Below are positions 28,784 to 35,415 of a stretch of 35,415 nt of DNA, in pieces. This DNA comes from an uncultured Saprospirales bacterium (GTDB lineage Bacteria; Bacteroidota; Bacteroidia; Chitinophagales; Saprospiraceae): NCBI GenBank assembly GCA_937899855.1, contig CALCCH010000226.1, positions 1 to 35,415 on the forward strand. The letters are read 5' to 3'. The notes beneath the pieces are model-generated. The model had not been told where the DNA came from and made no database searches. It saw only the letters and a program-made list of their open reading frames with translations. A program made the translations under genes and the position numbers. Positions within the stretch are counted from its first letter, which is position 1. Each line of letters begins with the position of its first letter.

Positions 28784-29641
28784 CTAGTGGCCGCTGTGGT
28801 AGAGCAAATATTCCAGGCCACTGCCTGGCGAAAACATATCGTCGTTGACCTTCCAGGTCAACTTGTACAGCGGATCACTGCGTTGATCCACCTCTTTTTT
28901 TACCTCGGCACTGATCGGCGTAGCCAAGCCCTGGTTCCACAAACGATGGGGACTGTCGGCGCTGATCTTGGGGGTGCGGTCCCAGTGCTCGCGAAAAGTC
29001 GCATCTTCCCGGTAGACCTTCTCGAAGGTGTAGTGAAACCAGTAGTAAGGGTACACCTTGAGCCAGCGGGTAAAGGGCGAGCTAAACCAACGGGGCGGAT
29101 CGGCCTTGAGCCGGCTGTACAAACCCGAGCGATTGATCAGGCGGTGCCACAATCGGCGTTTGGAGACGAAGACCAAGTCCTTGTGCGTCTCCCAGAAGGC
29201 CGTGGCCGCCCGCGCGTAGGTCTGAGCGATGTAGCTGCCCGGTTCGGAGGCCAGAAACCAGCTCGACAGCATGCGGTCCGTACCGGGGCGATCAAAAGCA
29301 AAGAAGCCCGTTTGCAGGTGGTCGAGCAGCCAGTCGTCGAGGGGCTTGCAACAAAAGCAGGTGGCATCCACCCATACTCCGCCGTGCTGGGCCATCAAGT
29401 TGATGCGGATCTACTCCGACATGGTGCCGCGGGGAATTTCCGCGCCACGGTTCTCCAGCACCTTGCCCAGATCGACAAAGCGATCAAAATTGTGGGTATC
29501 CAAAAAAATTATTTCCCAGCTACCGTTATATTTACGCCAGGAATCGTAACTCTTGCGCACCACCTCCGGCATGTCATCGTACCCCTGTAACCAGAGGAAC
29601 CAAATTTTCCGGGGAATCTGGGGGCTGTTGTTTTCCGTCAC
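28784..29641 (-). pseudogene. GT32-like glycosyltransferase interrupted by an in-frame amber codon
   Basis: The frame from GTG ending 29641 encodes IPRKIWFLWLQGYDDMP, then the DTHNFDRFVDL segment. It stops at TAG (29411-29413), then continues in the same frame as IRINLMAQHGGVWVDATCFC. Restoring the TAG as Tyr gives MSEYIRINLMAQHGGVWVD, the conserved donor-binding block of capsular polysaccharide/GT32 transferases (the GG-x-W/Y-x-D motif). The full frame is 285 sense and stop positions before the terminal TAG at 28784. Without readthrough only an N-terminal 76 residues are made, lacking the D-containing motif. It could be an assembly error, a pseudogene or a suppressible stop. Confidence 0.82.
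29411..29413 (-). other. Premature TAG at a conserved Tyr position
   Basis: This triplet reads TAG on the minus strand between GAG (Glu) and ATC (Ile) in the MSE-x-IRINLM block of the GT32-like gene. One base change from TAC or TAT would restore Tyr. The frame stays open on both sides for more than 70 codons. Confidence 0.85.
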
Positions 29642-29667
29642 TATAGGCTCAATTGTCCAGTTAAAAA

Positions 29668-30411
29668 ATGAATAAACTCACGCAATACCTTCGTAGAAAA
29701 TTTTTTGTGCTCAACGAGCTGCGCAAAAAGAAAACCGTCGTACTCATCATCAGCTCGATGCGTTCGGGGTCGACCCTCCTAAAGTCGCTGCTCGCCACCG
29801 CACCGGATACCTCTCACCTACCCGAAGTCGATTTCCAAACCTACACCGCCCAAAATGCCTGGCGCATCAAAACCCTCAGCAATCGCCCCATCCTCATCCT
29901 CAAAAAACCCGCGATGTTCGACGACCCCAACTATCCACAATTCCCCCCCCTCCCGGGGGTTAAGAAAATCGTCCTGCTACGGGATGCCTACGAAACCGTA
30001 GTCTCCCTCCGCAAAATGATCGCCAAAGCGTATCCCGAACTAGCGGACACCTGGACCGCCGAAAAACTCCTCCACGACTACTGGCTACCCCTCTACCGCA
30101 AGCTCACTGACGACCCGCGTCTGCAGGGCGACGATACCTTGGTGATTCGTTACGAAGACGTGCTCGCCCAGCCCATCGACCAGACCCAGCGCATCTTCGC
30201 CTTCATCGGCTCGCGCCAGCGCGAAGGGGTCGATTCCTACGCTCCACCCAGCTCCTACCAATGGGCCTGGGGCAACGACGACGGGGGCGAAAAAATCAAA
30301 AGCCACCGCGTACAGGCCCAAGAACTGCGTCGGGACGATCCCGTACTCGTCGAACTCATCGAAAACTCCGAAGCGGTACGGAAGCTTCGTCACCAGTTGG
30401 GCTATCAATAG
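29668..30411 (+). CDS. Sulfotransferase (fourth in the locus), on the opposite strand
   Basis: The 247-residue product has the PAPS 5' loop VLIISSMRSGSTLLKSLL at about 25-42 and a 3'-phosphate motif KKIVLLRDAYETVVSLRKM at about 109-127. RYEDVLAQP at about 160-168 is also typical of carbohydrate sulfotransferases. It is shorter than the other three. It starts only 26 bp from the GTG of the divergent GT32-like gene. That leaves little room for two promoters, so its promoter probably lies within that gene. It is flanked on both sides by minus-strand glycan genes, so it may be an insertion or inversion of a locus gene. It probably sulfates the same polymer. Confidence 0.88.
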   Translation: MNKLTQYLRRKFFVLNELRKKKTVVLIISSMRSGSTLLKSLLATAPDTSHLPEVDFQTYTAQNAWRIKTLSNRPILILKKPAMFDDPNYPQFPPLPGVKKIVLLRDAYETVVSLRKMIAKAYPELADTWTAEKLLHDYWLPLYRKLTDDPRLQGDDTLVIRYEDVLAQPIDQTQRIFAFIGSRQREGVDSYAPPSSYQWAWGNDDGGEKIKSHRVQAQELRRDDPVLVELIENSEAVRKLRHQLGYQ

Positions 30412-33232: not shown

Positions 33233-34891
33233 TTAACTTTCTTGATCGGATAGCAACTCGCTGATGACCGCTTCGATGGCCTCGCCAAACTCGGCGATGG
33301 TGGGATGGTCAAATACCATCTTGATCGGCAGGTCCAGCTCAAAGGCTTTTTCTACCCGGGCCATCAAGCGAATGGCTTCGAGCGAGTTGCCCCCCAGTTG
33401 GAGGAAATTGTCGTTGACGCCGATCTTTTCGACGGGCAGTATCTCCAGCCAAAATTCGGTCAGCATTTCTTCCAATTGTGTACGGGGAGCGATGTACTCC
33501 ACGTTCGATTCCACCTTGGAAGGCTCCCAGTCGGGCAATGCCGAACGGTCGATTTTTCCATTGGGGGTGAGGGGCAATTCGTCCAGGCGTTGGAAGCGGG
33601 TAGGGATCATGTACTCCGGCAAACGCTCCGCCATATGCGCCCACAATTCGCGGGTGGGAATGTCGCGGTCCGCCACGTAGAAGGCCACCAGCTCCTGCCC
33701 GTCGATCGTCTTGCGCGGCTCGATGTAGCCAATTTCCTTCATCATCACCCGCACTTCCTGCTCGTCAATGGGCTCGTTGATTTCGTCGATGGCGGTTGCT
33801 CGTTTTTTGTGTCCCATTCGTACGTCCCAACTGTAGGGGAAGGCGTAGTTGCTGTAACCCTGTTCCTTGGTGTGAACGTAGATGCCCAATTTGTTGATGA
33901 TGCAGTTGGTCGAACGCCCCGTATCGGCGGGTCGAATCCAGGGTATCTTTGAGTCGAGGTATACGTACATTTCCTCCAAACTTACATCGGTGTAGCGGTA
34001 AAAGTCGACAAACTGAACTTGTTCGAAAACCTCATCGGTATCGAAGATCGAGACATCCATCAAGCGACTGACCGCGTCATCTACGCGGTGGTATTCCTTG
34101 CGGGCGTTGAGAATGATGTCGTCAATACCCGAGATGTCGACATTGTCTTTCCAGAAGAGCTCTTCGGTCAAACGGGTTTCAAAAAACTGTCCCCGCGATA
34201 GTCCCGTTACGATGATCGGAATTTTCTTTTCCACCGCAATTTGCACGCTCATGGTGTAGAGCGCTTTGAAACAACCGTTACAAACATTGCAGTGGCGTTC
34301 GAGGCTGTCGACAAAAATTTCGTTCATCGCCGGGGTAGTACCAAAGACGTGGTCGATGCCCAGATCGCTGACGATGCGGCGAACGTTATCCTTGGCCCCT
34401 TCGGAAATAAAGCCATTGTCGAGGGTAAAGGCGAGTACTTCGAAGCCCATTTCCTTGAGTTGCCCCAAGGCGTAAGAACTGTCTTTGCCTCCACTCAGGA
34501 GCATGATACAATCGTAGTCGCCCCCACGTCGCTTCCGCGCCTGGCGGAAGATTTCGCGCAGGTCATCGAGGGTCTTGAAGTACTGCTCGGCCTTGCGTTG
34601 GAAAGACTCAAAGGAATGGCAAAAATTGCAGACGCCATCGTCGTCAAAGACCGCCTCCGGATAGTTGGAGGGCAGGCCACAATTGGTACAATAGTGCTCA
34701 GCTTCGTGCTGGGTAGCATTGGGGCGGTCCCAAAGCTCCACCACCGTTTGCTTTACCCCGGGAAAGCTGGACAGCGCCGCTTCGATCTCACCGGGTTCGA
34801 TCCGAATACCACCGATTTTCATCTGCTGGTCAATACGCCCCAAAAACTCCAATTGCCCCGCGCGGTTCCACTGCACCAAATCCCCCGTCCT
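33233..34891 (-). CDS. NRPS-like protein, C-terminal part: split A domain with embedded PP-loop amidotransferase, then carrier protein
   Basis: Numbering is from the TTG at 34879. The segment starts after the TAA at 34892-34894, with RTGD as the rest of A7 before that TTG. A8 follows at 15-36 (GRIDQQMKIGGIRIEPGEI). Residues about 59-390 (nt 33710-34705) are a separate module: YCTNCGLPS with a zinc-type CxxC pair at 63/66 and 84/87, LLSGGKDSSYALGQL (PP-loop at 129-135), CNVCNGCF near 197-203, and a C-terminal RMGHKKRATAIDEI helix. This is the N-acetyl-sugar amidotransferase/WbpG-PseA-like type. Then the A domain resumes with ELVAFYVADRD, A9 LPEYMIP (~420-426), A10 PNGKIDR (Lys ~442) and a carrier protein with LGGNSLEAI (Ser ~499). 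No condensation domain is visible. Confidence 0.88.
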   Translation of the reverse strand, partial: RTGDLVQWNRAGQLEFLGRIDQQMKIGGIRIEPGEIEAALSSFPGVKQTVVELWDRPNATQHEAEHYCTNCGLPSNYPEAVFDDDGVCNFCHSFESFQRKAEQYFKTLDDLREIFRQARKRRGGDYDCIMLLSGGKDSSYALGQLKEMGFEVLAFTLDNGFISEGAKDNVRRIVSDLGIDHVFGTTPAMNEIFVDSLERHCNVCNGCFKALYTMSVQIAVEKKIPIIVTGLSRGQFFETRLTEELFWKDNVDISGIDDIILNARKEYHRVDDAVSRLMDVSIFDTDEVFEQVQFVDFYRYTDVSLEEMYVYLDSKIPWIRPADTGRSTNCIINKLGIYVHTKEQGYSNYAFPYSWDVRMGHKKRATAIDEINEPIDEQEVRVMMKEIGYIEPRKTIDGQELVAFYVADRDIPTRELWAHMAERLPEYMIPTRFQRLDELPLTPNGKIDRSALPDWEPSKVESNVEYIAPRTQLEEMLTEFWLEILPVEKIGVNDNFLQLGGNSLEAIRLMARVEKAFELDLPIKMVFDHPTIAEFGEAIEAVISELLSDQES

Positions 34892-34894
34892 TTA
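34892..34894 (-). other. Premature TAA at the A7 Tyr position
   Basis: On the minus strand the codons read CGG AAG ATC TAA AGG ACG GGG GAT. The A7 motif of adenylation domains is Y-R-T-G-D, and here the Tyr codon is TAA. The frame is unchanged across the stop, so a single base substitution restores a continuous domain. Confidence 0.87.
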
Positions 34895-35415
34895 GATCTT
34901 CCGGCCCGGACTTATCGGATTGTCGACTTTGCGCTCCGCCGTCAGATCGGCTCGGTTCCAGTAGCCCACCGCCAAACTCTCGCCCGCCAGGTACAACTCT
35001 CCCGGTACGCCCTGCGGCGTCAGTTGACCACTCTCGTTGAGTACGTAAACTTGCATGTGCGGAGCCGGCACCCCAATGGGGACCGACAATTTATCGCGAT
35101 CCACGGGTTCGTACCGGTGCCAGACGCAGCCAACGGTGGCCTCCGTGGGGCCGTATTCGTTGTAGATCTTCAAACCCGCCGGAAACCGCTCCTGGATACT
35201 CGCCGCCAATTGGGCTTTGAAATCTTCACCGCCCACAACCATCACCCGAATCCGCGACTGAGCCAAGTCCTGGTCGTGGAGCAAGGTCAGGTGGGAAGGC
35301 GTAAGCTTGATGGCATCCACGGCATTATCGGCAATGACGTCGAGCAAGGCCAAGTCGGGCCCACTGGTGACCTCGTCGTAAATCACGATTCGACCACCGC
35401 TAATTAGGGGTACGT
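34892..35415 (-). CDS. NRPS-like adenylation domain, upstream part (runs off the window)
   Basis: The frame is open to the right edge (VPLISGGRIVIYDEV at the boundary), so the gene begins outside the window. It contains the central A domain: VDAIKLTPSHLTLL, VMVVGGEDF, A5 NEYGPTEATVGC and A6 PGELYLAGESLAVGYWNR. It ends at the TAA in A7. Adenylation domains activate a carboxylic acid, usually an amino acid, as its AMP ester for loading onto a carrier protein. The specificity-code residues before A5 are only partly in the window, so the substrate is not predicted. It continues in the same frame into the segment below 34892, so the two pieces are one gene or its recent relic. Confidence 0.9.
   Translation of the reverse strand, partial: VPLISGGRIVIYDEVTSGPDLALLDVIADNAVDAIKLTPSHLTLLHDQDLAQSRIRVMVVGGEDFKAQLAASIQERFPAGLKIYNEYGPTEATVGCVWHRYEPVDRDKLSVPIGVPAPHMQVYVLNESGQLTPQGVPGELYLAGESLAVGYWNRADLTAERKVDNPISPGRKI

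Follow-up and report, generated by a model that had tools for sequence, protein, structure and literature searches.

An NRPS gene at the end of a draft-genome contig carries an in-frame TAA in place of the conserved tyrosine codon of its A7 motif, and this stop probably reflects one wrong consensus base, or the collapse of a minor variant, in a fragmented assembly. On this reading, the organism itself would have an intact gene, encoding a condensation–adenylation–carrier synthetase whose adenylation (A) domain is interrupted after A8; reads from the site would be expected not to show the stop. The host gene may hold more interest than the stop itself, as a possible variant of the interrupted A domain.

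The window, meaning the whole stretch of DNA analysed, is contig C226 (35,415 bp), one of the 807 contigs of a 6.77 Mb draft genome that is 91% complete. The NRPS gene is truncated by the contig end, which lies 523 bp from the stop. The minus-strand frame running from 35413 to 33233 contains a single internal stop, the TAA, and is open over the rest of its length; the first-pass annotation had thus given both the coordinates and the frame correctly. No frameshift was seen in this otherwise open stretch of 727 codons. The TAA sits in frame immediately 5' of RTGDL, with a Pfam match to AMP-binding on its 5' side and matches to AMP-binding_C and PP-binding on its 3' side. The gene has the architecture of a C–A–PCP synthetase, in which a 324-aa PP-loop domain interrupts the A domain after A8 (Table 1).

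Table 1. Features of the NRPS gene and of the window that bear on the in-frame stop (window coordinates).
Feature	Position	Strand	Evidence
In-frame TAA at the A7 Tyr codon	34892..34894	-	Tyr in 78/80 loci
Upstream A-domain core (173 aa), open as far as the contig end	34895..35413	-	PF00501, E 5e-29, profile 227-384; rest of gene on C456
Frame after the stop (552 aa), comprising the end of A7, then A8, insert, A10 and PCP	33236..34891	-	
PP-loop insert, 324 aa, between A8 and A10, with CxxC/CxxC, SGGKDS and CXXC-C	33725..34696	-	TIGR03573, 138.5 bits (cut-off 203.2); invariant cysteines 80/80; predicted fold
AMP-binding_C, C-terminal part of the A domain with A10	33554..33709	-	PF13193, E 1e-8, residues 391-442 of the 548-aa piece
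Carrier protein (PCP)	33275..33460	-	PF00550, E 4e-14, residues 474-535 of the 548-aa piece
Overlap of 23 bp shared with the beginning of C456; single mismatch, at 35411	35393..35415	.	Contig comparison
Second in-frame stop of the window, TAG, between the halves of a Caps_synth gene (28784-29677)	29411..29413	-	Both halves match PF05704

The 5' part of the gene was located on contig C456, which carries the condensation domain and the beginning of the A domain in a frame that stays open as far as the end of C456. C226 and C456 share a 23-bp overlap within the NRPS gene and differ there by a single base, so the assembly records these positions of the gene, some 520 bp from the TAA, in two versions. 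No 23-mer with one mismatch or fewer to the window end was found among the 215,333 in the sampled stretches of the source genome, and the source genome yielded no second copy of the stop region with a different base at the stop. A one-base conflict of this kind is to be expected from an error as well as from a strain variant. The NRPS gene is broken by contig ends in three draft genomes: the source genome (C226 and C456), G001 (C71 and C586) and G046 (C177).

The window was aligned with 80 loci, taken from the 96 relatives that a collection scan had found. In the column of the stop, 78 of the 80 loci have tyrosine; L076 ends short of the site and L084 is frameshifted there. A stop in this column is absent from all 79 loci that extend so far. 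This bears out the earlier placement of the TAA on the A7 Tyr codon. A comparison with relatives gave tyrosine at the site in genomes of the same genus (G001), the same family (G004) and the same order (G046); G004 and G046 count in both comparisons, as L031 and L036 among the 80 loci. The A1–A10 motif names, and hence the A7 label of the stop site, follow the usual naming scheme. Two irregularities were seen among the relatives. The frameshift in the acidobacterial locus L084 (at about 5800, plus strand) falls exactly at A7 and is likely a separate lesion or error, and the G004 protein (L026:6446-10675, minus strand) has about 30 extra residues (LAPKGESS...GARGARG) between A3 and A4, which look like an in-frame repeat insertion.

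In-frame stops also interrupt other conserved genes of the source genome. Among AMP-binding matches, 2 of 41 contained an in-frame stop (on C135 and C699, both TAG) versus 0 of 74 in eight relatives, a contrast that is small. For ABC ATPase matches, examined in the source genome alone, the count was 1 of 52, on C196. An NRPS on C557 has an in-frame TAG, and the window itself holds a second case, the Caps_synth gene of Table 1, the halves of which match consecutive parts of PF05704 (profile 39-101 and 117-198). The same family was matched on both sides of the stop in a PAD_porph (deiminase) gene on C50 and in the ABC gene on C196. At the stops on C200, C366 and C699 (TGA), a Pfam match was found in the downstream half only, and a second stop on C50 (L136:14557) was judged by eye. 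A 7,065-codon NRPS frame on C368 is free of any stop.

To put a rate on such cases, we used arbitrary contigs. Three credible in-frame stops, chosen by eye, were found in 80,458 bp of the source genome (the 12 contigs L135-L146, on which alone the source rate is based), compared with none in 127,903 bp of G001 (16 contigs, leaving aside L028 and L029) and none in 164,868 bp of G004 (11 stretches, leaving aside L026). The other 11 of the 23 source sequences were non-arbitrary: the window, C456, C557, C135 (two stretches), C699 and C196 had been taken on account of this gene or of a stop already known, and C366, C368, C639 and C631 had been picked for NRPS or ABC matches. The source rate is about 3.7 credible stops per 100 kb, or about 250 per genome, and is rough because of the choice by eye and because the scans missed the 34892 site. 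At that rate, about 1.3 stops are expected in a stretch the size of the window and 2 were observed; a stop in the window is no more than chance for this assembly.

The candidates came from codon-likelihood scans. A first scan gave 32 candidates in 270,318 source bases versus 1 in 183,869 bases of G004, totals that were left unused because many of the candidates were antisense frames. A stricter scan listed 22 in the source genome, 2 in G004 (neither credible) and 1 in 148,510 bases of G001 (in L029, credible). Seven of the 22 source listings were judged credible by eye, and the remaining 15 were dropped as gene ends, nearby start codons or unclear frames. The stricter scan missed the stops on C135, C557 and C699 (edge) as well as the one at 34892; since this last stop was not listed, the scans under-count. 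A clustering of stops at contig ends was also considered and failed: 8 of the 11 listed source stops are further than 1.5 kb from any contig end, and proximity to an end is therefore not the whole cause.

A consensus error is favoured by the combination of a single lesion, a genome-wide excess of stops and the one-base conflict within the NRPS gene. The excess of stops could equally represent true variants of a mixed population. Less probable, though carrying real weight, is a private nonsense allele by which the sampled strain, or part of its population, has lost this module. Secondary-metabolite genes are dispensable and decay easily. In G001, the sole genome of the same genus examined, the neighbouring stand-alone AMP ligase of the same operon has an in-frame TAA (L029:4084-4086, minus strand), about 20 codons 5' of that ligase's A7, which hints at true decay; the G001 NRPS keeps its A7 tyrosine. 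Against a private null, however, the NRPS gene is without a second lesion, and comparable stops occur in housekeeping-type genes, such as a FadD-like ligase on C135 (labelled by reading) and the ABC ATPase on C196, so a general cause fits better than the decay of one cluster. If the stop were real, it would constitute an ordinary null allele: translation would end inside A7, and the product would be missing the last part of the A domain together with the insert and the carrier protein, which would leave the module dead.

Read-through, recoding or regulation of the stop, giving a full-length enzyme, seems to us extremely improbable. A further 552 codons with conserved domains are open beyond it, but each of the three stop codons terminates genes with ordinary frequency (47 TAA, 35 TAG and 29 TGA in long frames of the sampled source sequence), the in-frame cases include TAA, TAG and TGA (the TGA ones by reading only), and a stop at this site is found in 0 of the 79 loci that reach it. 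ARAGORN, applied to the loci with 44 tRNA-family matches, reported no tRNA with a stop-codon anticodon. Codon usage and tRNA results thus lend no support to a regulated or suppressed stop. A true gene fission, in which two proteins would associate into one A domain, also appears very unlikely. A TTG at 34879 does open a second frame of 548 aa, but the cut falls inside the A7 motif, and no stop at the site splits the gene in those same loci, L084 being frameshifted there. The first-pass annotation had offered three readings of the stop. Among them, the sequence error is the best supported, by the other in-frame stops, the contig conflict and the nearby contig end; the strain-specific null keeps its place behind it, and the regulated stop finds no support in the relatives, in the use of TAA, TAG and TGA alike to end genes or among the tRNAs reported, which include no suppressor. 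In this draft genome, single nonsense codons are not to be taken for biology. As a separate observation on tRNAs, the short source contig C247 (3,033 bp) has 13 tRNA genes within about 1.8 kb (L211:351-2142, plus strand), several of them with low family scores, which possibly derive from a mobile element.

The queries of the collection scan were two peptides of this NRPS family; as both come from the family itself, the scan cannot show how common other forms are. The titles of the 80 loci include Bacteroidetes, Leptolyngbya (cyanobacteria), Acidobacteriota, Acidimicrobiia, Verrucomicrobiae, Gammaproteobacteria and others. A BLAST search of plasmids returned partial matches only, to a Pseudohalocynthiibacter plasmid (29% of the query) and to Roseovarius (12%), both at the insert region, plus pieces of the A domain, and PADLOC gave no match.

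Upstream of the NRPS gene, C456 encodes a stand-alone AMP ligase and an acyl-CoA dehydrogenase-like frame, the dehydrogenase label being given by reading. A relative of the dehydrogenase is present in 48 of the 80 loci, some of which are cut short. The glycosyltransferase of the window has a relative in 8 of the 80 loci, and its two methyltransferases and its sulfotransferase have relatives in none of them. The AMP ligase query matched 79 of the 80 loci and was rejected as evidence, as this count includes the NRPS A domain itself.

The first-pass annotation had spoken of a split adenylation domain, which is correct but understated: the split is caused by a conserved insert of catalytic type. 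Against TIGR03573, the N-acetyl sugar amidotransferase family, the insert scores below the curated cut-off (Table 1). Four N-terminal cysteines (the tetracysteine motif), SGGKDS at insert position 68, and C139, C142 and C265 are invariant in all 80 loci (80 of the 96 relatives). The motifs flanking the insert are likewise conserved, with the A7 Asp column in 79/80 loci, the A10 Lys in 79/80 and the PCP Ser in 78/80. The loci show the interrupted A domain in one frame; L084 is frameshifted at A7, and the frame of the window is broken by the stop. C139, C142 and C265 are absent from three aligned non-NRPS relatives (L159, L167 and L170), these being the three of eight non-NRPS relatives that passed the motif filter, with five dropped.

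The fold of the insert was predicted with confidence (pLDDT 93.7, pTM 0.90). Its best structural match, by a clear margin, is 8wex (Foldseek E 1.3e-11; Z 20.1, r.m.s.d. 4.3, 296 residues), followed by a closely grouped set of many PP-loop enzymes at Z 11.9 to 13.7 that includes LarE, NcsA, NAD synthetase and the nitrile synthetase ArtA. Within this set, the [4Fe-4S] sulfurtransferases reach Z 13.7 versus 13.4 for NAD synthetase and ArtA, and are thus tied with the amide- and nitrile-forming PP-loop enzymes. By sequence, the best PDB profile match is 8cnz, a [4Fe-4S] LarE (E 5e-10). We infer that the insert would carry out an ATP-driven transfer of sulfur (or ammonia) to the carrier-bound residue. 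We tentatively picture a widespread NRPS family in which an Fe–S-dependent PP-loop domain, built into the A domain, might replace oxygen with sulfur (or nitrogen) on the residue held by the carrier and so form a thio- or amidino-peptide directly on the assembly line, the stop being a blemish in one copy. If the insert does transfer sulfur or nitrogen, it would add another chemistry to those incorporated in adenylation domains.

Among known systems, interrupted A domains offer a close parallel in arrangement. In the accessible part of one review (PMC11355689), the usual site for a foreign catalytic domain is after a8 and before the domain end, as in the present gene, and the inserts named are methyltransferase, oxidase, monooxygenase and ketoreductase. 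The insert described here is instead of the PP-loop ATP pyrophosphatase type with sets of cysteines, a type unnamed in that part of the source. The literature searched, from which most subscription papers were missing, did not yield a description of a PP-loop domain inserted into an A domain. The N-acetyl sugar amidotransferase NASAT (TIGR03573/WbuX; PDB 8wex), as far as the available portion of PMC10607449 describes it, shares the tetracysteine motif and SGGKDS with the insert and is its best fold match. Unlike NASAT, the insert falls below the family cut-off, has an extra invariant CXXC-C that the three aligned non-NRPS relatives are without, and sits in an NRPS and not in sugar metabolism. 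This extra motif recalls the [4Fe-4S] PP-loop sulfurtransferases LarE of T. maritima, TtuA and NcsA. According to the portions available, T. maritima LarE binds a [4Fe-4S] cluster through CXXC-C, which accompanies SGGXDS (PMC9283937), and the cluster of TtuA has three cysteines as its ligands (PMC8584467). The insert differs from these enzymes in the longer spacing between its CXXC and the third cysteine, but has the same pairing of SGGXDS with CXXC-C in 80/80 loci.
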